Source of the DNA: Pegea sp. RAD2-039
Taxonomy: Eukaryota > Chordata > Thaliacea > Salpida > Salpidae
Direction of reading: 5' to 3'
DNA length: 64,000 nt
Assembly: GCA_034620365.1 (NCBI GenBank)
Contig: JAQGEQ010000145.1
Span: 62,001 to 126,000, forward strand
Part shown: piece by piece, positions 25,933-56,813 of the stretch
How the letters are laid out: each line of letters opens with the position of its first letter
How positions within the stretch are numbered: position 1 is the stretch's first letter
Notes under the pieces: model-generated
The model's input: the letters and a program-made list of their open reading frames with translations, nothing else
Database searches by the model: none
Told to the model about the DNA's origin: nothing
Translations under genes and position numbers: made by a program

Positions 25933-28900
25933 TCAAAGATTATTAAGAAGAGTAACTCCAGGAAAACGACCAGAATTGGTACATTTTCGGGACCTACACA
26001 TTCTTTTCCCGATGATATTCATTATTGACTCTTCCCAGAGAGCATCTTTCTGCCAATGATGGAACACAGCAAATGATCCTTGCCCAGAAATTTGATCTAA
26101 AGTATCTTCTATACTTGTTCCAAATCCAAACGACATCACCTACAAAGATGTAGAAGTTAGAAGAGTGATGAGGAAGTTATGAATGTACCTCAGCAACTCT
26201 TCCAAGTCTCTCAGCTGCTGAAGATACATCCGGGAACCGATCTCTGGGTATCTCATTATTAGTGAAGACTACAACAGATTTTGGTTGATGATTTCTTCTT
26301 GGAGCTTCTTCAAAAAACTTTGGACTTTCATCCAAGACTTTCAGGAGTTTATCTTGATCTGAGATGAGAAGTGTTAGAAGTTATCAATTGGAAGTTTGAT
26401 AAGACCTTGAAGTGGTTGAAATTTGATGCTGTTGATTTGGAAGATGATCTGATCTCTGTTAGATGAGAATTCAATGAAGACCCTTTTTTCTTCACTCCAT
26501 GTAACTAATCCAATTCTCAGATTATCTTCTCCGAGAATAACTTGACTAGAAATAGAAATCATGAAGTCGTCTCTTTTGTACTTCATCACTTACTTGATGA
26601 AATTAATAATAATCTTGACGAAGAGGTTCCAATCAGGTGTAGATGATGGAGGATCAATTATAATCAACATATCTCCGGGAATTACAGGAGGACATATTGC
26701 TGTAAAAGATGAAGATTAATTTGCAAAGTGATGATCAATGATAACTTACGTTGACAACAAGCTGGATACGAATCAAATTTTCCTGTTGCTAAGCAAACAT
26801 TTGAATCAAAATCTTTTGGTACCAGTTCATAGTTGTTGTTGCACTGAAAATGACATTTTGATTGAGGGGAATTACCATTTGTGCATCTTATAACTCCATT
26901 TGGAATTGTTTGAGTTGGACAGTTTTTGTCTGGTGAAAGTAGAACATTTAAATATTCGTCATTTACAAATGACAACTTCACTTTCAATCTTTCGACATTC
27001 AGCATTCGTATAACTCCAAGTTGGTTTCTTACGTGTCCCTGATTCACATGTAATTGTTCCTTCACCTACTAAATCATAACCACTATCACAAGCAATCAAA
27101 CAAATAGTTCCAACTCGATGTGGTTCACATTCACAAAGAACTTTTCCATTCTGTGGAGCGTTCACTTCAACTGTACATGTGTCTTCATCTGAAGATGATA
27201 TAATTAAGACATATAATGACTTATATTTGAGACAAACCTCTAAACTTGTGTTTACAAGATGGGATTTTTGTATTCCACATAATTCCTGCTTCATTCTTAA
27301 CGCATCTCACTACTGAATCACCAATTAAATCGAAGGAACTGAGACAATTAAATTCGCAAACTTCATTTAAACCGATCCCAACACAACGAACTTTTCCATT
27401 TCCAATTTCACTTAATCTTGGTGAACAAGTTTCTATCAAATTATTTGTCAGTTATTTTTATATTTTTTTACAAACATCAAACCTTGTTCTAAGATACATT
27501 GAGGATGTTGTCCGTTCCAATATAACTGCCCATAATTGTCTCTGATGCACTCAAGCAGACTTGCTCCAATCAACAGATAGTCATCATTACATTTATACTC
27601 ACAAATTTGTCCTCTACCTTCACCTTTACATGAAAAATTTCCATTTTCAATTTCAATTTCGTGGCATTTAACTCCTGAAATAAAATAACATCTCAATTTT
27701 TAACAAAATTGTTTAACGTAAATAGAACTTGTTTGTTTTAAACCGCAAATATTAGAATTTGATTTTAGTGAAACACGTTTTCTAGTAGAAACTGTATCAC
27801 GAGTTAACCTGGTTTGAGAGGGGAACATATTGGAATGTCTGCGTTCCATTTAATATCTCCATCAATAGAACGGTTACAAGTAGCAACAGTGACGCCCATT
27901 AAATAATAATTTTCTTCGCAATGGAAAGTACAAACTTCACTATCTTCAGTTCCAACACATTTAATACTTCCATGTCGAAAAGCTGCTGGTAACTTGAGAC
28001 AAGATTCAATCTTTTCAACTGTAAATCAACGCCTTAAATTATGATCAACAAACGCTGTTGTCATCTCACTTTCTTCCCCGATCAAGATACTTATACAGCG
28101 AGGGGCTTTATCACTCCATTCGAAGCCGGACTCGTATAAAGAGTCACATGTGATTTCACTTGCACCATGTAACGAGAAGTTCTCGTCACAGTCGAATGAA
28201 CACGTTTCGCGCCCTTTAGTGTCAGCTTGACATTTAACTTTTCCATTCTCAATATGTGAATAAATCGGGAAGCAATTACGCGGATCTACAAAGTCGTGAT
28301 GAATGTTGAGTTGCCATGACTACCATCACTCACATTTGTCCTTGACGATGCAATTCGGTACTTGCCCACTCCATGACAACATCCCACCCTGATCTCGGAC
28401 GCAAGTGATGTAATTTGAATCAGAATCAATTTCAAAATCTTCATCACAAGCCACAAAGCAAAGATCTTCTGCATCGCGACCTGTACAGATGACGCGACCG
28501 TTTTCTATCACTTCTGGAAGGTCTGAGCAGATCCGATAGACTTCATCTGCATATTACGATTCAATTGAAATCAACACAAGTTGCAAATTCGAACTCGACC
28601 ATTTTTGTTATCAGCAGAACAGGTGGGGGGCGCTGAACTCCATGCCAATCGTCCACTACTATCACGTGAACATATGACGTCATTGGGGCCAAGTAAAGTG
28701 CCCCCATTTTGACAAGTGAAAGAACAGGTCTCGCCGAAGCCGCTGCCTTGGCAACGTGTACCAATGACTTCACTGAAAGTAGCTGGTCGTGGCTCACATA
28801 AGTCTGTAAAAATGTCACGTGACTGTGTGTGGATGACGTCATAAGCGCGAGATACTTGTGATAAGAGCTCGACATTCGGGAACATTGCTACTGGTTCTGA

Positions 28901-30240
28901 AACGACCATCAATTAGTGAACACGTGATAGACGAGGCACCGACGATGACGTAATCGTTGTCGCATTCGAAGCGACAAATCTCTGTTAATCCATTACCACT
29001 GCAAATCACGTGACCGTGTGGAAAGCTTGGAGGTTTCTCGACGCAACGATCTTTGAAAAAAACGATAAAAAAAGGAGAAAGAAAAAGATGAAGAACTGAC
29101 CAGGGACGTAAACGCACGTCGGGAAGTTATTCTTCCAATTTTCTTTGCATTTCATTTTGCTTTCACCAATTAAAATTGAATGTTCGCGACACACGAAGTT
29201 GCAGGTAGTGACGTCATCAACTACTTCACATCGAATCGATCCATTAACAAAGTCACGTGGTACCGTTTCCAAGCACTGGTTGCTAGGAGATTCAGTTATA
29301 ACTGGTGAAGATTCAGAAACAAAATCATGGTAGTTATCTGCATAGCAACGATCGTTAGCAACCATTTCAACAACAGCTGTTTGATGTAGTTACTTAAATC
29401 AAAGAGTTCGCAGGTGGGTTTCTTCGAGCTCCAGCCAGTGACGTCACAAACACTACTGATGTCACCAACGATCAAATATCCTGTGTTGCAGCTGAATCTG
29501 TTAGAAATCGTGTCAACAGCTGGTTACTAGGCTTTTTGTTGCCTAGTTACCTGCATACACTCCCTAAGTTGCTTTCATCACTACACACAATCTGTCCGTT
29601 TAGAAGTGATGACGTCATGGCGGGATCACAAGAACCTATCAGCAACAAGTAATTTATGTTTAATGATGAATGTGATTAAGTCAAAAAATCTTTCAAGAAG
29701 TTTCAAAACTTTTTTAATTTCATTTTTAATTTTGAAGATATTTTCATCAAAAACCTGAATTGCTTCCAGAGCCTGAGACCTCTTCGCAGATATTTCGGCT
29801 GTTACACAAGTTTCCATGACAACAACAGGTACAATTATCGCTAGAACATTTCTGGAAGACATTTTCAACTACCTGTTAGATAATTAATTTACTGGAATAG
29901 ATTGTAATACTGACGTCATCAGAACATGACCCCTTGAACGCCATACATCCCTTTGAAATCACCTTTGAACCCGTGACATCATAATATACAGAAGTTGAAC
30001 AAATCTAAAAAATATTTGAAAGTAATTGAAAAATGAAAGATTTAAATCCAAACCTGACTTTGATCTTTACACGTGATCTCTTGTTGATCATTTGAACAAG
30101 AGTCTCCATGGCAACTGTAACATTTTAACGAAACTACAAAAAAAGAAGCTTTTAGTGAATTGCTTTGAAAAAGAAGCAAGTTCACCTGAAGTAGAGACTG
30201 CAAAAATCAACAAATAAAAAACTAAATAGAATATTTTCAT
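25933..30240 (-). CDS. Secreted Ly6 - 11 sushi (CCP) - vWA multidomain protein
   Basis: The start ATG at 30240 opens a signal peptide (MKIFYLVFYLLIFAVSTS). Exons down to about 29755 encode a Ly6/uPAR three-finger domain: LKCYSC at the start and CTCCCHGNLCN at the end (CC....CN signature). Eleven sushi/CCP modules follow between 29635 and 26750, mostly one per exon with phase-1 borders. Each has six rather than four cysteines, the arrangement known from selectin sushi repeats. The last exons (26700-25933) form a vWA domain (DMLIIID, then LRIGLVTWS, SVVVFTNNE, VMSFGFG) followed by a short Cys-containing tail and a stop. Total length is roughly 1000 residues. There is no transmembrane segment, so secretion is likely. 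The vWA metal site is degenerate (DPPSS instead of DxSxS). I know no named orthologue. Complement factor B/C2 also joins CCPs to vWA but carries a protease, absent here. Confidence 0.8.
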
Positions 30241-36382: not shown

Positions 36383-39300
36383 ATGAAATTAATTTCGCTT
36401 TTGCTGCTTTTGTGGCTTTCTGCAGCTGAATCGCGCGTTTTCGAGTCTTCGAATCGATTTGAAACTTTTCAAGGTTTGATCAAAAGTTTTAGAATTCAAA
36501 ATCTTTAAAGACGATTTAATAAAATTGAAAAGTTTAAAAATCTCTAAAATATTTTTTTATTAAAATTTCAGAATTGATGGATCCTTTTGATGCGCCTCAA
36601 CTCAATATGGATGACGTCACTGACTCGCGTGACGTCATCTTCATAATTCAAGTTTCGGGAATTACAGTAATGATCATGTGACTTCAGTTAACATGTCTAA
36701 CGTCACTACTATAGGAACGAGATATCTCATTTATCCGTCAACTGATTGAAATTACAGTTAATCAGATGGAAGGGATTGGTCAGAGTCGCGTTTCAGTGAT
36801 CTTCTTCAATAAGATCAGTATAGAGCTCATTAGTTTTTCAACTTGCTGTTCAAGAGGGCGTTCTCATCTTCTTCAAATAATCCAAAATGAAATCACATTG
36901 AAAAAAATCTACACTGCGACAGCAAGCACTTCTAAAGGGGATCAATCTCATATAAACCCAGACTCAATTGATGTTGAAGAAGCTTTTCTTTACGCGAAAC
37001 GTCTCTTGATAAATGACGTCATCACCTAAAGTTTTCTAACTGCTTTTATTTTAGTGAAATATCTGTCTGATGAAGTTCCTTTGAAGAAACCGACTTTGAT
37101 CTTGTATATTGGAAACTTAAACTCGCCTTACACTGACTTATTACTCTATCATCGAGCATACGATGAAATAAAATCATGCAAGCAAGCTGGTGCGTGGTTG
37201 ATGAGTGTGCTTGTTGATGAACAGGAAAAGAGGTTTGAAACTACAAGCCAAATATTGACATCAAATACTGTTTATCTTTTATTGTAAAATGATAAAACCA
37301 ACCAATAAGTTACACTCAAATTTGAATAATTTATCAAATTCTTTTGTAGATTATCAAAACGTCAATTATCAAATAGCCGAGAAATCCAACAGAAAAAAAA
37401 GTTGCATTCTGAGTCGGTTTCGAGTAAAAAAAGCAAAAATAGCAAATAATCAAAATGAATTTTTCTATTTAGCAAATATTTGAATAAAATTAAAAGTGGC
37501 GAAAGTACAAATAAGGAAGTATTAGCAACAAATGATTATGATAACGATGACTTAGCAGAATTAGTTCTACATTTACAATCAAATAATTCAATCATTGCAA
37601 GAAAACTTGAAAAAAATTTAGCAGAAATTTATGTAAAAGTTAGTTTGAAAATAATTTAAGCAGAAATTTGACATTTTAACTGAATATCAGAAAATAGCAA
37701 GTACAAGTGAAGATGGATTAGTGATATCTGATTATTCATTTTTAATAAAACCTATAGTAACTGATTTAATTGCTTTTAGGATAAAAAACCCGACAACGTG
37801 GTTCGGAGGTAACTTACTAATTGTTCATTGAAATAATTATCAAGGAATATTTAGAGTTTTTAAAAGATTTTATTTTATCAGTTAGAATGTCTGAACAGAA
37901 AGAATAATATAAATTATTTCATCTGTAAAAAATTTTCATTTTAGAGGCAGAGATAACAAGTAGTTGTAAAAATACTAAAAATGGAAACACAAAAATTTTG
38001 TGGTCACCGAATTATTTCGTTTCTTCTAAATATCCATCATCAGTTCATTGTGTGTGGAAATTAAGAGCTCGAAAAGGATGGAGAATTTATATCAAGTAGT
38101 TTATACTCAGTTGTATTTTCAAGGAAAGCTTGTTTTGTGATAAAGATAAATTGCTTAAATCGTTTAGTATTTTGTGTTTAATGCCAAACCTTTTCATGTT
38201 TCTTACATTTACCTTTCTTCAAACAAAATAGTTTTTAATTGCATTTTAAAAAAATTTATTTCAATTTTCAAAACAGATTTGAAAAGTTTAAAACTGAAGA
38301 AACTTTTGATAAAGTTGACATCTTTGATGACCATATTTTTGATCCTAGTAACAAGTTGGCTTCTTTTAGGTGACAATTTAACTTTCAAATTCATCAAACT
38401 TTTTATTACTTTTTTCAGTGGTGATCTTAACTCCCCAAATCTTCTTCCAGTCGTAACTAGCACTAATGAACGAATATCTATCAGGTTTACAAGTGATAGT
38501 AGTCACAACAAGATGGGGTTTGTCGCTAGGTGGCAGGCAAAACCTCAATCGCTTTTCTTAAAAGGTTATTTACAAAATGATTTAATTTTTGGGTTACAAA
38601 GTCATCATAACAGTAGTTATAAAAAAGTTAGATTTATTGTTTGATATCTTCCATCTTTTTTAATAAAAGCTTCATTTTCAAACTAAATCTTTTCAGGATT
38701 TGATGTCGTTTATCTGGTAGATACTTCTAGTAGTATCTCTATAGAATCGATCATTAAAATAAGAGGATGGATAAGTGTTGCCACTAAATTATTTGACTTT
38801 GATGAAAAGAAACTGAAAGAAGTTGAAACAAAAAGGTTAGCTGCTACAAATCACTTCAACTATCCTCATCATTCAATTTCAAAAGTAATAAATATAAAGA
38901 TGAAGAAATTCAAATAAGAAGTTCACAACCAAGCCGTTTTGGATTGATAAAATTTGGCACAAATCCACAAATTATATCTTCAATTAAAGATCAAGTCACT
39001 AGAACTCAATTCATTTCTCAGATTAAACAAATAGAAGTTTCTCAGTCTGGAAGTTCAATCGGGAAAGCGCTCGACTTTTCGCGTATCATGCAGTTTAAGT
39101 TAGTCTTCTCTATTATTTCTTCAAATCTTTAAAATCTTCTGATTCAGTTTGCTGAGTAAAGATCTCCGTTCTTCGAGTCCTAGCAGAAAAATCATCTTCA
39201 TCCTATCAGATGCATCCTCTCTTGATGATTTGAAGCGTCCTTCACGACGTCTCTGTGACAACCAAATACTCCCAATCCTCATCGGAGTCGATTCAGTCGA

Positions 39301-40374: not shown

Positions 40375-42260
40375 AATAAATGCGAAGGAGGGTGCCTGAA
40401 GAGAGCACCTCTCGCTAACACACGAACAACATCTATTTAGTCAAAAATATAGAAAGCAAAAGATATAACACATGGCATTTCAGTAGACCTCAAAATATAA
40501 AACAGTGAACAATTACATATAATGTTAATAATATAAAAACGGAGGAAATCACAGTTTATAAATGGTATTGTTGGCAATATTATAACGGTTCAACTTCTGC
40601 TTGAACAACGCGAGCGACTCCGACATGACAATTGCAGCTGGTTCCATGTACTAATTGTACGGTATGAGAAAAAATTTGCTCTGACCAATGTACCAGGTGA
40701 TATAGGCTTATTAAGATGTAATGTGTGTCGTCTGAGCTGATATAGCTTGAGGGAAGGACTAATGGAAAAGAAATCATCGAATTGAAGGTCAATTAAATTA
40801 TGGATAATTTCAAAAATAAGAATTAAGTCGTGTTTAATCCGTCGGATTTCCAAAGTATCTAAATTGAAGAAGCCGAGACGATGTTTATAACTATCATATT
40901 TAATATTAAGTTTCCTGCATACTAATCTTGTAAATGTGGCCTGAACAGATTCGATTTTTTTGATATCACTAACTTGATATGGCATCCATGCACTAACATT
41001 GTATTCAAGAATTGGGCGTATGTACAGTTTGAAAAGATTGATAAAGAAGCATGGATTCTTAGAATTAAAGATCTTTATAATAAGGAAGACAAGGTTGATA
41101 GATTTTCCAAAGATTTTGGAAACATAATTGTGCCATTTAAAGTCAAATGATAAATTAATGCCAAGCGAAACTGGTTTGTAGTTAATAGGAGTAATAATAG
41201 CTTTCTTCCAAATTTGTGGAACTCTTCCTCGCCTCAGAGTGATGTTAAGGAGTAGAGATAAAGATATTTATACAGAGGAAGTAGTTTTTCTTAAAAACAA
41301 AGCTGGGATCTGATCTGGGGTGTTGAAAATTGATGGTTTTATGGAAGAATTAGCCTTAGATACCGTATTACACGTTATGTCAAGATCTACCATCTCAGAG
41401 ACATTTGTAAGAATGTCGGAGTAGGAGAGAGAAGGAGTATTACCATCATTGGTTATAAAACGCTGTTAAATTGTTTGTTTAGCAACTCAGCTGTATTCTT
41501 TGGTTTCATCACAAGCTGGTTATCAATTAGGTGAGGTAGATGAGACCTCGCCTTAACCTTTGATTTATAAAACCAAAAAACGTTTCTTGCAAGGTGAAGA
41601 TAAAAGTGCACTTTCTCTTCCTAAGTAAAAATTAGAAATAGATTTCTTGTAAACTATACAAAGATCTTTGTACAGAGATTTGATGGAAGGGTCTGTTTTA
41701 GTTTGTTTGTATAGGAGGTTTTTTAAATGTTGTAAATTCTTTAAATATTTGGGCAAATGTGGTTTTTGTTGGCTCTATAAAAAGGTATGAATTTTTTGAT
41801 TGACTCTTTAACGATGTTAGTAAACCTTGAGTAAATAGTATTGATGTCTTCGGAAGAGTTGAAAACAGAAATCCATTCAACATCTGATAGAAACTTTTTA
41901 ATAACATTATAATTTCCACAGTAAAAATTCCTTTTGCTTGAAGTTTTAATGTTCATAGAAAAAGTTTGATGGAGCTTGAATTCAATCATATTGTGATCGC
42001 ATGTCAAAGCAAAAGGTTCTTTTTGATCAACGTAGATAATGTTTTCGGGTTTTGATGTGATGAGAAGATCCAAAGTATTACCACTAGCTTGGGTTGGAAA
42101 AGTAACCATCTGAGATAGATTATTGGTAATAAGGAAGCTTACAAAGAAAAGCTGAATTAGTATTATCCCTATCCAAGTTTAACGATTTTCTAATAAATGC
42201 TAAATTCGGGTTATTCCAATCAATTTTACTGAAATTAAGATCTCCCAAAATATATAACTC
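40375..42260 (-). mobile_element. CR1-like LINE, endonuclease to 3' tail, degenerate
   Basis: On the minus strand an endonuclease part (LGDLNFSKIDWNNPN at about 42250, then SGNTLDLLITSKP and TCDHNMIEFKL, the DH catalytic block) continues into an eroded reverse transcriptase. Readable again at 40985-40590 is the C-terminal block with MPYQVSDIKKIESVQATFTR and RTISTWNQL. The element ends near 40375 in a conserved tail with a GAGAG-CTCTC stem-loop. The middle (41200-41740) contains many stops. It is dead. Confidence 0.75.
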
Positions 42261-43480
42261 AGGACACACAACGCTCTTCAAAACCTTCAATAAGGTCTTA
42301 ATAGTAACTTCCTCATTAGTTTTGAAGGGTGAATGTGCAACGATTACTGCATCTTCGGCAAAAAGTAAGTCACAGATGCAGATCTTTTTAACTTTAGAAA
42401 TCATTTAGAAGCATTGAAAAGACTTCTTTCAGATCTTGAATGAAAGTAGACTCCTTCTGAGGATGCATTAATGCTTGTTTTAGTAATATTGAAAATAATA
42501 TTGCGTTGGGGCATCCCTGTTTTACTCCGTTTTTGATGGTAAATGATTCCGAATAGCTTCCATCATATTAGACTATTGTGTTCATGTGGAATGACTTCAT
42601 CATCTTAAAGAGGCTAGGTAGACATCCAATCTTCAACAGTATCAATAACATACCTTCCCTACTGACAAGGTAAATGAACACGATATGCAAGTGTTATTCT
42701 TTGCATTATTTCTGTGATTGACGCACAGAAAAATCATTATCATAGTCGAGCGTTTTCATCACTGGTGTGATTCTATCCTTTCAACTAGCATTTGTAGGCA
42801 AAGAAGCATCACATGAGTGAATCTTAAGCAAGGATATTCCTCTGTGATTGTTGCAATCGTACCTGGCACCCTTATTTTTGTACATCGTCTTCTGAAATCG
42901 ATCCTTCTCCCCAACATTTGATTAAAATATCGTGGAGAAGAGGCAAGTTGTACATTTTTTACCAAGTCAGGTGGTATGTGGGTCGCTACCATTGCAGAAA
43001 TGGCTTTGATAAGTTATTCTCGTGTTGGTTTGTAATGTATGATTGGTAAATGTTTCATTTTATCTATAATTACTTAAAATTTCAAAAGCAATAAAATTTA
43101 TGATAAACAACTGAAACACAAATGAGATTCATTCATAAAAATCATTTTAGAAAACTTAATGACTTAAATAAAAAATGTCTCCTTAAAATCCTATCTTTTA
43201 TCCTGAGACAAATATAAAATATTTTTTATCCGCAAGGTGATGATACAAAGCTGTTAAAACTAGATTAAAACTTCATTCTAAACATTTTGTGTAAGATAAG
43301 TATCTTGAGAGATATTTGAAACATGAAAAAAAGCAAATACTAAATGAAAAGTGAAAAATTTATCTATATAATTATAAAATTATGATATCAAGAAACTAAT
43401 CAAATTTAATCTTATTTATTCTATTTAAAATTACATTAAAAGAATAGTTAATAATTAATTTGTATTATAATGAGAGTTCA
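42261..43480 (-). mobile_element. Chimeric LINE block A (reverse transcriptase fragment)
   Basis: The minus strand contains an ORF starting MVATHIPPDLVKN (42992), then broken frames with FTIKNGVKQGCPNAILFSILL (RT box) and KICICDLLFAEDAVIVAHS at 42390-42340. In the catalytic box FADD has become FAED. The RT sequence stops abruptly after VVCPEL and is joined to the endonuclease of a different, CR1-like LINE. The whole block with this junction recurs inverted at 58.3-59.5 kb. AT-rich non-coding DNA at 43000-43480 belongs to the repeated unit. Confidence 0.7.
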
Positions 43481-43489
43481 TCAACTTAT

Positions 43490-44900
43490 TTTTATCATCT
43501 ACCGACTGACTCCAATAAATCTTGTAGACTTTTGTGAAATCCAACAATTTTCATATTCAGTTGGAGAAATTCTTGATATAAAAAATATATAAGAAATAAA
43601 TTGTTTCAACAGTAGAGTATTAGAACAATTTCCAACCAACTAATTGTTTTTAGGATAAAAAGTATGTAATAGAAGATGTAAATTACGTTCTAGTGCAAAA
43701 GGTTCTTTTTGATCAACGTAGATAATGTTCTGAGGTTTTGATGTGATAAGAAGATCCAAAGTATTACCACTAACTTGGGTTGGAAAAGTAACCATCTGAG
43801 ATAGATTATTGGTAATAAGGAAGCTTACAAAGAAATGACTGAATTAGTATTATCGCTATCCAAGTTAAACGATTTTCTAATAAATGCTAAATTCGGGTTA
43901 TTCCAATCAATTTTACTAAAATTAAAATCTCCCAATGAAAAAAAAACAATTCTCAAGGCCCATGTTGGAACTTTGTATTTGAAATCAGTTGGTTGTTCCT
44001 TCTGATTTCGGTTATACGCCTCTTTTAGAAGACGCTTATTTTCTAAGCGATCATCTTCACACATATCATGTGCTACTCTAATGCGCTCGAATTTTTTGTC
44101 AAGCTTTAGCTTATACAGCTTGGCAAGAAACTTGCATTTGTTCCAATTTTCCTGAAAGGATACTTTCAGCGGTCTTTGATGATCTGAACTTTTTGCTCCA
44201 AGTCTAGTCATTGATATCTTTGGAACGTCCACAAAATCAAGGCTTTGAGAGCACATTTGATTAAAAAACTTACTGTCATCATCTCTATCAGTCTCAGAGA
44301 CATTAAAGATGATGACATTGTTTTCTCTGTCCTCACGATCTACAGTGAGTTTTTTGTTCGTGTCGGTGACCTTCTTGGCAAGAAGCTGCACCATGCTAGC
44401 ATTTTTGTCGGAACCGGAATCACCGACCACCGAGGCCCATGTGACTTGTTTCTTTGTAGAGGCATCCAGTTCGTTGGTTGATTTGGACAAGCTAGAATTC
44501 TTTTTGTTGATTTGATAACATTGTTGCCAATTTCAGATATAAATTTGGCTAATTCAGCAGATATAGATTTGCTAATGTCGGATAATAGGTTAGAATTAGA
44601 TGAGGGAGCTGTTGTTTCCATGGCTCTACATTTAATGCACAACCATTTAAACCCCATTTGCTTCATCTGGTTGTTATCAAACATATCATAAATTTTCTTG
44701 CTCACATCACTACAGGTTCAATGAAACCAGGAGAGGCATTTAAAGCATTCTATTACCGGATCTTCACTAGAGCAAATTTTATTGTAGGATTGGCAATCGC
44801 CATTGCAAGCTTGGTTTGAGGAAGTTGGTTTGTGAGAATTTTTCTATATACTGGAATGTAAGGTCTTGGCAGTTTTATTTGGATCCACCACGGTTTTTAT
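43490..44900 (-). mobile_element. CR1-like LINE ORF1 with PHD finger, fused to endonuclease remnant
   Basis: Reading the minus strand from about 44830, a PHD-type zinc finger appears: CNGDC, then ECFKCLSWFH, an in-frame TGA, TC, and WLCIKC. A Ser-rich and coiled part follows, then an RRM-like domain (RENNVIIFNVSETDRDDD at about 44340; RIRVAHDMCEDDRLENKRLLKEAY at 44100). PHD plus RRM is the usual ORF1 design of CR1-like elements. The ORF then runs directly into FSLGDFNFSKIDWNNPN, the middle of an endonuclease domain, so a large internal deletion removed the start of ORF2. 43490-43825 is the remainder of that endonuclease piece plus unrelated sequence. Confidence 0.7.
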
Positions 44901-45559
44901 TTTCATGAAAGATTTTAGTGTTGCCAAACCAAATACTTCGAATCGATTTGTTATCTAGATAGAATAAATTATCACGAAAAATATACAAATCACTTAATAA
45001 AAATACTTTTATCACAACTTACAAACAATATGAAAATAAAACCTATAACAAATAAAATAACATAATAAATATCACAGTTAACCAGATGTTAAAAGAACTT
45101 GACAAAAATTGATGTAGTGATGGAATAGAGAACATTTCAAGATCATATTATTGAAAAAGTTGTTGTCAGCTGGTGGAAAAAAGGCGTCGATATTGCAAGG
45201 ATATATTAAGCTTATAGAAGAGGTTTACTATGAAGAGTAGAGAAATGAATGCCTCATCAGGAAAACATTTATATGATCTTTGAGTGAAAGTCTAATTTAG
45301 GATGGATATATAAAAAAAAATTTACAATTTGGAATTAGTATTCCAAATACTTGAGATCTTAGAAATTGGGAACTTCCATTATAGAAAAGTTAAATAATAT
45401 TGGACAAAGCTTGAGGGTTTATTTATTGACACATTGGAGAAACATTTGTCCGTAGCTAGCTTGAATTATCTGGATTAAAGCTATAAGTTAATAGATTTCA
45501 AAGAGGCGAAAAACCGCTGATTTTTTACTAAAACTTTGCTATCATCGATAAAGGAGCAT
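44901..45559. other. Spacer between two oppositely oriented LINE copies
   Basis: No clear coding sense. It probably contains the eroded 5' part of one or both LINEs. The stretch near 45400-45560 has LINE-like composition but no motif I can name. Confidence 0.35.
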
Positions 45560-46488
45560 TAAACTACTAGAACCATTTAGTGATGAAACATTCTCGTAAA
45601 CCAGCTGCAAATTCCTTGAAGCAATACTCCATCAATAGATTTATTATTCAACGAGTATCTTCGGTCCTAGACCTTGGCATTACTCTATCATCTGATTTTA
45701 AATGGCGCAATTATGTTTCCAAAATCTTTGAAAAATCAATCCACCTTATTATAAAGACCTTTAATTCTAAGGATCCATACTTCTTTATCAATCTTTTCAA
45801 ATTGTACGTCCAATTCTTGAATACAATGTCAGTGCATGATGCCATATCAAGTTAGTGATATCAAAAAAATCGAGTCTGTTCAGGCAACATTTACGAGATT
45901 AGTATGCAGGAAACTTAATATTAAATATGATAGTTATAAACATCGTCTCAGCTTCTTCAATTTAGATACTTTGGAAATTCGGCGGATTAAATACGACTTA
46001 ATTCTTATTTTTTAAATTATCCACAATTTAATTGACCTTCAATTCGATGATTTCTTCTTCTTCATTAGTCCTTCCCTCAAGCTATATCAGCTCAGACGAC
46101 ACACATTACATCTTAATAAGCCTATATCACCTGGTACATTAATCAGAGCAAATTTTTTCCCATACCGCACAATTAGTACATGGAATCAGCTGCCATCAGA
46201 CATTGTTATGTCGAAGTCACTCGCGTTGTTCAAGCAGAAGTTAAACCGTTATAATATTGCCAACAATGCCATTTATAAACTGTGATTTCCTCCGTTTTTA
46301 TATTATTAACAGTATATGTAATTGTTCACTGTTTTATATTTTGAGGTCTACTGAAATGCCATGTGTTACATCTTTTGCTTTCTATATTTTTGACTAATTA
46401 AATGTTATTTGTGAAAATGTGTGTTAGCGAGAGGTGCTCTCTTTAGGTACCCTCCTTCGCATTTATTGTAATAAATAAATAAATAGAG
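45560..46488 (+). mobile_element. 5'-truncated CR1-like LINE with intact 3' tail
   Basis: Plus-strand coding sense with few breaks: VLDLGITLSSDFKWRNYVSK, MPYQVSDIKKIESVQATFTR, RRHTLHLNKPISPGT and finally RTISTWNQLPSDIVMSKS-ALFKQKLNRYN, the standard C-terminus of CR1/Jockey-type reverse transcriptases. The 3' UTR ends in GTGTGTTAGCGAGAGGTGCTCTC-type tail sequence and an (AAAT)n run at about 46470-46485. It is the same family as the minus-strand copy at 40375-42260; the two tails point outward. Confidence 0.85.
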
Positions 46489-47764: not shown

Positions 47765-50024
47765 ATGGTACATAGCTAGATCATATAAGAACTTTAGAAG
47801 AAATAATTTATTTGCAAAATCAATTTTATTTTTTTATTTTTTTTTAAGGAATATCCTCTAATTGCGGACTTTTATGCTGGTAAGACTGTAGCCTTAACAG
47901 GAGGTACAGGGTTTGTTGGTCAAGCAGTGATTGAAAAACTACTTCGAGAATGTCCTGATGTAAAGAAGATCATTTTATTGATCCGAAATAAAAGAGGAGT
48001 CGATCCCGAAGAACGTCTTGATCAATTGGTCATGAAACCAGTAAGTTATCCACTAATTTTATGAACATTAAAGTTTCAGTTGGAATATTTGAAGGCTTTT
48101 GAGAAACTCAGAAAGATTGATCCAAGCTTTCGGAAGAAATTGGCTTTTGTTTCATGTGATCTAGAAGCTGAAGATTTAGGATTAAGTAAAGATGGTCGAA
48201 AGATGTTGGTGAATGAAGTGAACATCTTCATCCATTCAGCAGCCACTTTAAAGTTTAATGAAGCTATGAGGTAAATGTGGTCACGTGATCTACTTCATCT
48301 CAATTATTTTACCACGTGACGTTTACAGAATCGCTTTCAACATGAATGTACAATGTACTCGACGATTGATGAAAGTTTTCCGATCCATGAAAAATATTCA
48401 AGTCTACGTTCACATCTCAACAGGTTCAACAAACATCTTCAAATCACTAATGACGTCATCACCGCTGTCTGCAGCTTACGTCAATTGCAATCGATTTGAA
48501 GGAGAAGTTGAAGAGAAAGTCTATCCGAGTCGCATCTGCTACAAGGACATGGAACATTCTCTTAAATGGATGAAGGATGAAACAATCGAGAAAATGCTCG
48601 GCGACATCTTAGAAGAGCGGTTAGTCTCATAGTGACGTCATCATCATGTGACGTCATCATCGCTTTTTTAGACCAAACACTTACACATTGACGAAAGCAA
48701 TGGCAGAAGAAGCAGTTATTAATGAGATTGGGGAAATCCCCTGTTGCATCGCGCGCCCAGGTATAATTACTGCGTCAATTAAGGACCCTGTACCAGGATG
48801 GATTGGGAACTTATATGGCCCGACTGGGCTCATGGCTGCTAATATGAAAGGCGTTTGTCGGTTGTGTATTGGTGATCCAAGTTGTATCATGGACTTGGTT
48901 CCTGTCGACTTTATTGCAAATGGTATCATTGCAAGTGCAATGAAAACTGCTATTGACGCGAAAACGCGACGTCGCGACCAAAAGTCCCGGGCTAGTATTG
49001 ACAGTGGTACATCTGAAGCTTTCCATAACTCAAAAACTGTTAGTTCATCAGATGAATCTGGTTTGTTGGTCTTCATCTTGGCCTCAATAGATTATAATAA
49101 TTGAGATTTTATTAGATACTTCTTCAATTGACATGAATCATTATCGAAAGGAGCCAGCAGTTTCAGATGTCCCAGTCTACCACCTCTCTGCTTGTGGCGT
49201 CAATCCAATCAATCTTCAGGGAATCAGTAAGTTTGTTTACATGGAAACGAGTCCAATCAGTATTTAAATGATTATTTTGAAGTTGATGGTCTGAATTATT
49301 GGAACGAAAAAACGCCTGCAGTACATTATGTACCTTTAAAAGCATCTATTGACTGGAATAGGTTTTCTAATTTGCTTCAATCTTTTTGTTAGTTTTTTGA
49401 CATTTTTTTTTGTAGAAATTTCTACAAATTCCGTTCTTTTTTAATTGAATATCTTCCATCAGTTTATCTTGATATGTTAGCAAAATTATCAGGACAGCGA
49501 CAAGGGTAAACCTCTACAGTGAAAAGTGGTCAGCTTAATGATTATTTGTATTAAAGAGCTAGGCCAATGTACACAAGATTAGAAGCTGGGATGAATGTTT
49601 TAGAGTTCTTCTTTAGAAATTGTTTTGATTTTCAATGGAAGCGATCAAAAAATTTGCTTTACAGTCTACACCCGAAGGACCAACAAGTGTTTAATTAAAA
49701 GTTTAATCACATTCCATTTTTGATACCTTTTATTTTTAGACATACAACTTTGATCCTCATACTCTTGATTGGAGAGATTATTTAGGTGTATACTATGGAG
49801 GGATTAAAAAGTATGTGTTACGAGAAAAGAGCTCAGTAGAAAATAATCTTAAGAGACAAGCCAGGTAAGATGTAGATGTTTGTAGTAGATTGTAATGTAA
49901 GTTTATTTGTAGAGTGAATCAAGCCTATGACATTGCTAGCAATTTATTTTTGATGGCTGCTGGTATAGTCCCGGCTTCATTTGGAGTCACTAACACAATA
50001 TGGGAGTCAACTTCTTATAATTGA
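47765..50024 (+). CDS. Fatty acyl-CoA reductase, copy 1, 11 exons
   Basis: Predicted exons: 47765-47767 (ATG only), 47849-48040, 48080-48270, 48329-48619, 48672-49060, 49116-49226, 49283-49361, 49416-49505, 49563-49686, 49740-49864 and 49913-50024. They total 568 residues in frame. The N-terminal NAD(P)-binding Rossmann domain has GKTVALTGGTGFVGQAV (TGxxGxxG) and IFIHSAATLKFNEAM. The catalytic YxxxK is YTLTK in RPNTYTLTKAMAE, and IARPG-ITASIKDPVPGWIGN follows. The C-terminal FAR domain has SFLIEYLPSVYLDMLAKLSG and LGVYYGGIKKYVL. The enzyme reduces fatty acyl-CoA to fatty alcohol with NADPH, for wax or ether-lipid synthesis, usually on peroxisomal or ER membranes. Relative to animal FAR1 (about 515 residues) there is an extra polar insert near residues 355-390 (RRRDQKSR, Ser-rich). 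The two C-terminal membrane helices are shortened. Confidence 0.85.
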
Positions 50025-54558: not shown

Positions 54559-56813
54559 ATGGTACATAGCTAGATCATATAAGAACTTTAGAAGAAATAA
54601 TTTATTTCAATTTTATTTTTTTATTTTTTTTTAAGGAATATCCTCTAATTGCGGACTTTTATGCTGGTAAGACTGTAGCCTTAACAGGAGGTACAGGGTT
54701 TGTTGGTCAAGCAGTGATTGAGAAACTACTTCGAGAATGTCCTGATGTAAAGAAGATCATTTTATTGATCCGAAATAAAAGAGGAGTCAATCCCGAAGAA
54801 CGTCTTGATCAATTGGTCATGAAACCAGTAAGTTATCCACTAATTTTATGAACATTAAAGTTTCAGTTGGAATATTTGAAGGCTTTTGAGAAACTCAGAA
54901 AGATTGATCCAAGCTTTCGGAAGAAATTGGCTTTTGTTTCATGTGATCTAGAAGCTGAAGATTTAGGATTAAGTAAAGATGGTCGAAAGATGTTGGTGAA
55001 TGAAGTGAACATCTTCATTCATTCCGCAGCCACTTTAAAGTTTAATGAAGCTATGAGGTAAATGTGGTCACGTGATCTACTTCATCTCAATTATCTTACC
55101 ACGTGACGTTTACAGAATCGCTTTCAACATGAATGTACAATGTACTCGACGATTGATGAAAGTTTTCCGATCCATGAAAAATATCCAAGTCTACGTTCAC
55201 ATCTCAACAGGTTCAACAAACATCTTCAAATCACTAATGACGTCATCACCGCTGTCTGCAGCTTACGTCAATTGCAATCGATTTGAAGGAGAAGTTGAAG
55301 AGAAAGTCTATCCGAGTCGCATCTGCTACAAGGACATGGAACATTCTCTTAAATGGATGAAAGATGAAACAATCGAGAAAATGCTCGGTGACATCTTAGA
55401 AGAGCGGTTAGTCTCATAGTGACGTCATCATCATGTGACGTCATCATCGCTTTTTTAGACCAAACACTTACACATTGACGAAAGCAATGGCAGAAGAAGC
55501 AGTTATTAATGAGATTGGGGAAATCCCCTGTTGCATCGCGCGCCCTGGTATGATTACTGCGTCAATTAAGGACCCTGCACCAGGATGGATTGGAAACTTT
55601 TATGGCCCAACTGGGTTCATGGCTGCTAATATGAAAGGCGTTTGTCGGTCGTGTATTGGTGATCCAAGTTGTATCATGGACTTGGTTCCTGTCGACTTTA
55701 TTGCAAATGGTATCATTGCAAGTGCAATGAAAACTGCGATTGACGCGAAAACGCGACGTCGCGACCAAAAGTCCCGGGCTAGTATTGACAGTGGTACATC
55801 TGAAGGTTTCTATCACTCAGAGTCTCTTAGTTCATCAGATGAATCTGGTTTGTTGGTCTTCATCTTGGCCTCAATCGGTTATAATAATTGAGACTTTATT
55901 AGATACTTCTTCAATTGACATGAATCATTATCGAAAGGAGCCAGCAGTTTCAGATGTCCCAGTCTACCACCTCTCTACTTGTGGCGCCAATCCAATCAAT
56001 CTTCAGGGAGTCAGTAAGTTTGTTTACATGGAAACGAGTTCAATCAGTATTTAAATGATTATTTTGAAGTTGATGGTCTGAATTATTGGAACGAAAAAAC
56101 GCCTGCAGTACATCATGTACCTTTAAAAGCATCTATGGACTGGAATAGGTTTTCTAATTTGCTTCAATCTTTTTTTTTAGTTTTTTGACATTTTTTTTTT
56201 GTAGAAATTTCTACAAATTCCGTTCTTTTTTAATTGAATATCTTCCATCAGTTTATCTTGATATGTTAGCAAAATTATCAGGACAGCGACAAGGGTAAAC
56301 CTCTACAGTGAAAAGTGGTCAGCTTAATGATTATTTATATTAAAGAGCTAGGTTAATGTACACAAGATTACGGGCTGGGATGGATGTTCAAGAGTTCTTC
56401 TTTAAAAATTGCTTTGGTTTTCAATGGAAGCGATCGAAAAATTTGCTTTACAGTCTACACCCGAAGGACCAACAAGTGTTTAATTAAAAGTTTAAACACA
56501 TTCCATTTTTGATACCTTTTATTTTTAGACATACAACTTTGATCCTCGTACTCTTGATTGGAGAGATTATTTAGGTATATACTATGGAGGGATTAAAAAG
56601 TATGTGTTACGAGAAAAGAGCTCAGTAGAAAATAATCTTAAGAGACAAGCCAGGTAAGATGTAGATGTTTGTAGTAGATTGTAATGTAAGTTTATTTGTA
56701 GAGTGAATCAAGCCTATGACATTGCTAGCAATTTATTTTTGATGGCTGCTGGTATAGTCCCGGCTTCATTTGGAGTCACTAACACAATATGGGAGTCAAC
56801 TTCTTATAATTGA
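54559..56813 (+). CDS. Fatty acyl-CoA reductase, copy 2
   Basis: Same exon plan as copy 1: ATG-only first exon (54559-54561), second exon from 54636, stop TGA at 56811-56813. The TGxxGxxG, YTLTK and C-terminal FAR motifs are all kept, and no stop or frameshift was found, so it should be functional. Differences are scattered: VNPEERL for VDPEERL, MITASIKDPAPGWIGNF for IITASIKDPVPGWIGNL, GFYHSES for AFHNSKT in the Ser-rich insert, and a small cluster in the exon near 56350-56420 (RAGMDVQEFFFKN for EAGMNVLEFFFRN). Introns are also nearly identical, which implies a recent tandem duplication. Copies may differ in chain-length preference or expression, but nothing in the sequence proves it. Confidence 0.85.

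Follow-up and report, generated by a model that had tools for sequence, protein, structure and literature searches.

A predicted family of Ly6-sushi-vWA proteins in the salp Pegea, and a diverged member lacking the vWA metal-binding motif

Does the minus strand of a 64,000-nucleotide stretch of the Pegea sp. RAD2-039 genome (contig JAQGEQ010000145.1, positions 62,001 to 126,000; hereafter the window) encode one protein joining a Ly6 domain to sushi modules and a von Willebrand A (vWA) domain, and, if so, to which family would that protein belong and what might it do? A sequence-only reading had proposed a signal peptide, a Ly6 domain, eleven sushi modules and a C-terminal vWA domain joined in frame, and our exon model bears this out. 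The gene runs from an ATG at 30240 to a TGA ending at 25933 and comprises 20 exons, with GT-AG borders at 19 of 19 introns and a 1060-codon frame free of internal stops. The predicted protein of 1060 residues consists, in order, of a signal peptide (a hydrophobic N terminus judged by eye), the Ly6 domain, 11 sushi modules, the vWA domain and a short Cys tail. All exons listed below come from the exon model; exons 5 to 15 and 18 to 20 were also assigned with Pfam and home-made profiles, and further evidence for the others is given in brackets.

Exon 1, 30186..30240, minus: signal peptide (MKIFYLVFYLLIFAVSTS) with the start codon; end phase 1 (N terminus by eye)
Exon 2, 30054..30133, minus: Ly6 part 1 (LKCYSCHGDSC...); end phase 0 (Pfam)
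Exon 3, 29915..30004, minus: Ly6 part 2 (ICSTSV...GSCSDD), corrected 3' end, phase 0 (Pfam score rising from 22.8 to 26.2 bits; paralogue candidates)
Exon 4, 29755..29872, minus: Ly6 part 3 (VVENVFQKCSSDNCTCCCHGNLCN) plus linker; end phase 1 (Pfam, alignment)
Exon 5, 29551..29635, minus: sushi 1, first half
Exon 6, 29394..29497, minus: sushi 1, second half
Exon 7, 29101..29337, minus: linker and sushi 2
Exon 8, 28856..29050, minus: sushi 3
Exon 9, 28600..28803, minus: sushi 4
Exon 10, 28334..28546, minus: sushi 5
Exon 11, 28091..28285, minus: sushi 6
Exon 12, 27809..28018, minus: sushi 7
Exon 13, 27483..27674, minus: sushi 8
Exon 14, 27238..27432, minus: sushi 9
Exon 15, 26982..27188, minus: sushi 10
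Exon 16, 26750..26929, minus: sushi 11, ends in a double Cys (ACC) (paralogue junctions, home-made profiles)
Exon 17, 26594..26699, minus: CPP junction plus vWA part 1, whose metal site is degenerate (IIIDPPSS); end phase 2 (Pfam, paralogue introns)
Exon 18, 26406..26545, minus: vWA part 2; end phase 1
Exon 19, 26189..26358, minus: vWA part 3, with VVVFTNNE instead of TDG; end phase 0
Exon 20, 25933..26139, minus: vWA part 4, Cys tail and stop codon

When the whole window protein was scanned against Pfam, 11 stretches were recognized as Sushi (150.5 bits; cut-off 20.7), VWA scored 42.5 bits (cut-off 23.8), and Ly6 was not listed at E ≤ 1. Scanned alone, the Ly6 region reached 26.2 bits for UPAR_LY6 (cut-off 24.8) with the corrected exon 3/4 junction. 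An earlier version of this junction, a 24-nt intron in phase 1, gave a score under the cut-off and was dropped in favor of a 42-nt phase-0 intron, which raises the score and fits the paralogue candidates. The nearest PDB sequences to the window Ly6 are LYPD6 and activin receptors (E about 0.002 to 0.003), and a six-sequence alignment displays its LU cysteine plan with the CC....CN end. The earlier claim that no protease is present also stood: Pfam found no protease in the window protein, and the stop soon after vWA leaves it without a C-terminal trypsin domain. Nor did Pfam match EGF or pentraxin in this protein, and no membrane anchor was seen by eye. The home-made profiles used as controls were seeded partly from the window gene and hence find it by construction; they gave no match on the reversed window, no Ly6 match in eight other 10-kb stretches and, on the real window, the gene itself plus one vWA match on the opposite strand.

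The locus had been put forward as a candidate for a new gene family, and relatives are indeed present in this genome. Ly6 followed by sushi, in the same order and on the same strand, was found at no fewer than 10 loci including the window gene (at least nine others), a count obtained by examining 35 of the 73 motif sites found. Within the DNA examined around each, vWA lies downstream in 7 of the 10, and three, among them the C13 locus at 989 kb, have none. A phase-1 Ly6-to-sushi junction is the top in-frame splice candidate in 7/7 paralogues, as in the window gene; the gaps there go down to 89 to 96 nt, and the top-scoring introns measure 50 to 83 nt in five of the seven. The sushi-CPP-vWA junction likewise has its top candidate in phase 1 in 6/6 paralogues, matching the window gene, although in C116 and C18 the reading frame can also continue across this gap unspliced. 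The double Cys (ACC) precedes vWA in five of six paralogues tested as well as in the window gene, and vWA intron phases 2, 1 and 0 recur where tested. Matching the exon 3/4 junction, a phase-0 candidate occurs in 5/5 paralogues tested; under our crude splice score the sequence-preserving candidate between Ly6 parts 2 and 3 is present in all five and ranks first in one, and that between vWA parts 1 and 2 of C13 ranks third. Signal-peptide-like starts were seen by eye in five paralogues inspected, and a stop soon after vWA in six that were read. Since the starts, the phase-1 Ly6-sushi junction, the CPP junction and the post-vWA stop recur, the Ly6 and sushi/vWA exons most likely form one gene. 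Their separation into two genes had been named as an outcome that would overturn the architecture; at the level of genomic comparison, paralogue order, strand, junction phase and short gaps argue against it.

The six aligned Ly6 sequences share thirteen invariant Cys residues, including a CxCCC motif, with just 25 to 37% identity between the window Ly6 and the other five. None of five paralogue Ly6 domains exceeded the Pfam cut-off. A genome-wide UPAR_LY6 search returned no match; introns divide the domain here, and control genomes were silent too. C42, with vWA beside a Ly6 motif site, had no Ly6 profile match and was excluded from the family, although it is among the five in the proximity figure; C59 showed no domain matches. 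In L002 the eye had suggested a C-type lectin domain, which Pfam did not confirm. From these comparisons, the predicted plan of this multigene family is Ly6-sushi(1 to 11)-vWA, and the window gene, which shows the order SP-Ly6-sushi(n)-CPP-vWA-stop with the shared intron phases, is a diverged member.

Besides its many relatives in the genome, a degenerate vWA metal site (MIDAS) is a feature of this gene beyond those in the sequence-only reading. The window vWA has DPPSS for DxSxS, lacks the GTxTG loop and carries TNN for TDG. The metal-binding motif is kept in four of six complete family copies: DxSxS, GTxTG and TDG are all present in C13b, C8 and C38a, and C18 has DxSxS, the loop GTATHT and TDG. 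C116 is also degenerate (NSSKS). Used as a BLAST query, the window vWA retrieved no paralogue vWA at E<1 among the family loci examined. Judged by these motifs, the window copy is a diverged family member whose predicted vWA has lost the metal-binding motif.

SVEP1/polydom is a secreted protein with an N-terminal vWA, many sushi modules, and EGF and pentraxin domains. The window protein resembles it in uniting vWA with many sushi modules in a predicted secreted protein, but its vWA is C-terminal, neither EGF nor pentraxin was matched, and Ly6 is present; Ciona KH.C4.450 bears the SVEP1/polydom name in a table (PMC8495957, accessible text). Complement factor B and C2 are described as CCP-VWA-protease proteins (PMC11312191, accessible text). 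They share the succession of sushi modules and vWA with the window gene, whereas the family described here lacks a trypsin domain, carries a Ly6 head and up to 11 sushi modules, and stops soon after vWA. The head of the window protein has the cysteine plan and CC....CN ending of Ly6/uPAR (LU) proteins such as LYPD6 and of activin/BMP receptor ectodomains, passes the UPAR_LY6 cut-off, and is flanked by phase-1 introns. According to the accessible text of a 2019 review, LU domains occur as single-domain, GPI-anchored, LU-only multidomain and TGF-beta receptor forms and in a few non-homologous settings (GPIHBP1, SP-10); mobility of Ly6/LU as a module is doubted, and the words sushi and von Willebrand are absent from that text (PMC6600238). 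Among the matches listed in the open-access PMC literature on Ly6 or three-finger proteins together with sushi, vWA or tunicates, no architecture of this kind appeared.

The present family exceeds the review's picture, and on one recent occasion the head alone seems to have been copied. Two loci share a 665-bp block of signal peptide plus Ly6 with 658/665 identical positions (98.9%), while the flanks are 51 to 67% identical, about what is seen at random (mean 60%, maximum 67%). Contig C14 carries EGF-Ly6-vWA-EGF genes with the same Ly6 type (CRCCC....CN) upstream of vWA. There, EGF arrays replace the sushi rod, although one copy seemingly has sushi between Ly6 and vWA by eye, and the vWA junction differs, its Ly6-to-vWA candidate being in phase 0. 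Ly6 parts 1 and 2 occupy one exon in these genes, and thus the Ly6 exon set differs between genes. These comparisons suggest that large mosaic proteins can incorporate a Ly6 domain, and that Ly6/LU largely behaves as a mobile module in this genome. The stronger proposition, that LU/Ly6 is a bona fide mobile tunicate module, shuffled into two or more mosaic backgrounds (sushi-vWA and EGF-vWA), its heads copied between loci independently of the body, we regard as doubtful. If true, it would imply a lineage-specific repertoire of recognition molecules with exchangeable heads, for example in self/non-self recognition.

On balance we lean towards a single gene encoding a secreted, rod-like adhesion or recognition protein, a diverged member of the Ly6-sushi-vWA family. 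Domain types point to an extracellular role, in which the predicted three-finger head would bind a protein partner, the sushi rod would give reach, and vWA would hold the protein to a matrix or cell-surface ligand, with the metal site for this kept in most complete paralogues. With its own metal site lost, the window vWA would either bind in a metal-independent way or act as a regulator or decoy. The family may have grown by module copying, the Ly6 head being able to move apart from the sushi and vWA body. If expressed, these genes would supply a candidate set of adhesion/recognition proteins in the sister group of vertebrates, and a case of sushi and vWA in factor-B-like arrangement, used with no protease.

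A more specific role in the tunic, larval adhesive or metamorphosis matrix, like that of other tunicate vWA/sushi genes, is quite possible, though we hold it a little short of an even chance. Ciona vwa1c is expressed in larval papillae (PMC4109947), a reporter of a predicted transmembrane sushi protein gene of Ciona marks outer collocytes (PMC10962819), VWFA and Sushi rank among the commonest domains in changing Ciona metamorphosis proteins named only by domain (PMC13225635), and some Oikopleura house proteins have CCP or VWA (PMC3390340). Like the present family, ascidian Vwa1/vwa1c, Ci-sushi and the oikosins are tunicate extracellular genes with vWA or sushi; compared by description only, however, the accessible parts of these sources describe no Ly6 domain for them.

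It is rather less probable that the family is immune, consisting of soluble body-fluid molecules that would tag microbes or non-self cells or regulate complement-like C3/TEP, with copy number and changed metal sites as diversification. The best PDB matches of the window sushi part are CR1, CR2 and other complement regulators; yet sushi modules of many proteins resemble these. The C3/TEP thioester domain has no fewer than 37 exon matches in the genome, many on C249 and C278, and the multigene character of the family and its recently copied head block would also suit such a role, as would vWA-type sequences, including Boltenia Vwa1 matches, in a Botryllus allorejection EST library (PMC2527998, accessible text). 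Against it, the protein lacks a protease, and the diverged Ly6 copies C13b, C18 and C116 have dN values of 0.13 to 0.20 and a dS that could not be computed (-1, taken as saturation), which points to purifying rather than diversifying selection.

Decay of the window copy, with loss of vWA function, appears improbable: alteration of all three metal-site motifs, the similar state of C116 and the vWA-less C13 locus at 989 kb would fit it, but the frame is intact over 1060 codons and 20 exons with no stop or frameshift, and 11/11 sushi modules are recognized by Pfam. We rejected the model of two adjoining genes wrongly joined, one for a small secreted protein with Ly6 and the other for a protein with sushi and vWA, as highly improbable, for although the intron 4 donor is weak (GTTTTT) and a stop within two codons after it would end an unspliced Ly6, the Ly6-sushi junction recurs in paralogues and, in that frame, the sushi part is preceded by neither an ATG nor a signal peptide of its own.

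A search for COX1 gave no match. Elsewhere in the genome, Pfam gave a GH6 match of 35 bits (cut-off 27); to our knowledge, GH6 among animals is confined to tunicates.

Rebuilding of the minus-strand gene in the window bore out the secreted Ly6, sushi, and vWA product that the sequence-only reading had described:

25933-30240, minus strand: signal peptide, Ly6, 11 sushi modules, C-terminal vWA

The gene has 20 exons and 1,060 codons with no stop inside the frame, and its 19 introns are all GT-AG, 15 of them 47 to 56 nt long. A Pfam scan of the whole protein returned 11 Sushi stretches and one VWA, each over its cut-off, with no match for Ly6 and none for a protease. Scanned alone, the Ly6 domain reached 26.2 bits, above the cut-off of 24.8, when the intron was taken as 42 nt, a splice that joins GSCSDD to VVENVF; a 24-nt intron was rejected as implausibly short, the domain alone then scoring 22.8 bits. 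By eye, the protein begins with a secretion signal and ends without an anchor. The Ly6 exon set has a phase-1 intron on either flank. By sequence, the Ly6 is closest among solved structures to LYPD6 and the activin receptors, the sushi part to complement receptors 1 and 2, and the vWA to collagen VI. Our own domain profiles were partly seeded from this gene, so that its matches to them are by construction; the reversed window gave no domain match, nor did eight other stretches of the genome match the Ly6 profile.

The host assembly (105.7 Mb, 387 contigs) was searched for the Ly6 ending CCxx[DN]xCN, which occurs at 73 sites, compared with 14 for the pattern written backwards; 12 of the 73 belong to a single repeat tract on contig C38. 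Among the 61 others, 5 lie <6 kb from one of 130 vWA matches on the same strand, where ~0.3 would be expected, and the Ly6 is upstream in all five, although one (C42) has no Ly6 profile match. Thirty-five of the 73 sites were examined, mostly in stretches of 3 kb apiece, on the motif's strand. A Ly6 profile match followed by same-strand sushi was present at 10 and absent at 25, and a vWA lies downstream at 7 of the 10.

Loci with Ly6 followed by sushi, by contig (sushi counts are our own reading)
Window: 11 sushi; vWA
C8: 10 sushi; vWA
C38 at 496 kb: at least 8 sushi; vWA
C38 at 508 kb: 7 sushi; partial vWA
C13 at 995 kb: 3 sushi; vWA
C116: 2 sushi; vWA
C18: 1 sushi; vWA
C13 at 989 kb: no vWA ahead of the next gene
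C13 at 319 kb: examined DNA ends too soon to decide on vWA
C264: examined DNA ends too soon to decide on vWA

Seeds for the profiles came from a C14 gene and the window gene, and matches were added later, which biases the profiles' E-values toward the family; none of five paralogue Ly6 domains exceeded the Pfam cut-off. Judged by sequence, the Ly6-sushi-vWA gene is a member of a family rather than a single gene.

The same gene structure recurs among the paralogues. The best in-frame splice from Ly6 to the first sushi is phase 1 in all seven tested, as in the window, and the gap between the domain ends is 89 to 117 nt in five of them. Between the last sushi and the vWA, a CPP motif and a top-ranked phase-1 splice are found in 6/6 paralogues and in the window, although in C116 and C18 this gap can alternatively be read without a splice. 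A double Cys ends the last sushi in five of the six tested and in the window. The vWA introns have phases 2, 1, and 0 where tested, matching the window, with the phase-2 candidate ranking only third in C13. By eye, a stop follows shortly after the vWA in all six paralogues that have one (five of these, like the window, carry a tail Cys pair), and signal-peptide-like starts precede Ly6 in the five paralogues whose upstream frames were read. Because these junctions, phases, starts, and stops recur, the Ly6 and sushi/vWA exons most likely form one gene, and the recurrence weighs against the alternative, raised earlier, that they belong to separate genes.

The window copy is a diverged member of this family. 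In its vWA metal site, DPPSS replaces DxSxS, the GTxTG loop is missing, and TNN stands where relatives show TDG. All three motifs are present in C8, C38 at 496 kb, and C13 at 995 kb; C18 has DxSxS and TDG with GTATHT as the loop, while C116 has an altered motif, NSSKS. Counting the window and leaving out the incomplete vWA of C38 at 508 kb, four of the six complete copies thus keep the site. BLAST of the window vWA found no paralogue vWA in the loci examined, and the window Ly6 is 25 to 37% identical to five others.

Two loci on C13 (989 and 995 kb) have in common a block that spans the signal peptide and every Ly6 exon and intron and matches at 658 of 665 aligned bases (98.9% identity):

C13:988532-989196 and C13:994195-994859: 665-bp block

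The block ends two bases past the Ly6 CN codon, and its flanks, in 200-base steps, show 51 to 67% identity, similar to random pairs (mean, 60%; maximum, 67%). This pattern suggests either a head-only copy or gene conversion. On C14, a Ly6 of the CRCCC type, as in the sushi family, lies between EGF modules and a vWA, a second protein background for the domain; large EGF-Ly6-vWA-EGF genes form a cluster there (150001-160000 and 170001-180000), and one gene has, by eye, an apparent sushi downstream of Ly6. The Ly6-to-vWA splice candidate on C14 is in phase 0, and a single exon covers Ly6 parts 1 and 2; therefore, this unit is not identical to that of the sushi family. The genomic evidence argues against the doubt, expressed in a 2019 review, that Ly6/LU is a mobile module. 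Among the diverged Ly6 copies of C13b (a C13 locus), C18, and C116, dN is 0.13 to 0.20 and dS is not computable, which we read as saturation; these values fit purifying selection.

The product would be an extracellular adhesion or recognition rod, in which the Ly6 head would bind protein and the sushi modules would act as a spacer; the vWA could bind ligand via a metal ion in most complete relatives but not in the window copy. In published reports, tunicate vWA and sushi genes function, or show expression, in the larval papillae, during tail regression and metamorphosis, and in the Oikopleura house (PMC4109947, PMC10962819, PMC8495957, PMC13225635, PMC3390340), and because of these settings we slightly favor a matrix or adhesion role over immunity. 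An immune role is possible, since vWA-type sequences also appear in a Botryllus allorejection library (PMC2527998). A Ciona gene, KH.C4.450, is named after SVEP1 (PMC8495957). The open-access literature searched yielded no Ly6-sushi-vWA architecture, and its novelty rests on that search.

Exons matching the C3/TEP thioester domain number at least 37 in the host genome, with clusters on C249 and C278, and the genome also carries a glycosyl hydrolase family 6 (GH6) gene (35 bits; cut-off, 27). Both features are consistent with a tunicate host; among animals, GH6 is known only from tunicates. The window is AT-rich; TGACGTCA occurs in it 27 times, compared with ~0.5 expected (hand arithmetic at ~30% G+C), and CACGTGA 12 times. 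Its other features are as follows:

36715-39132, plus strand: further vWA-containing gene, on the strand opposite to the Ly6-sushi-vWA gene
40590-45855: broken ORFs, LINE-type retrotransposon-like by eye
48270-49104 and 54570-55891, plus strand: fatty acyl-CoA reductase-like gene in tandem copies (NAD_binding_4)

In the first, the VWA at 38827-39129 scored 26.7 bits (Pfam cut-off, 23.8), and Pfam recognized no domain in the ORF at 36715. The sole match among three ORFs scanned in the second was a subthreshold Exo_endo_phos_2, and the third contains two identical 120-aa ORFs, at 48270 and 55057. On the same contig, 34 to 54 kb ahead of the window (C139:8001-28000), lie vWA, EGF, and sushi exons, and the vWA copies there carry DxSxS motifs.
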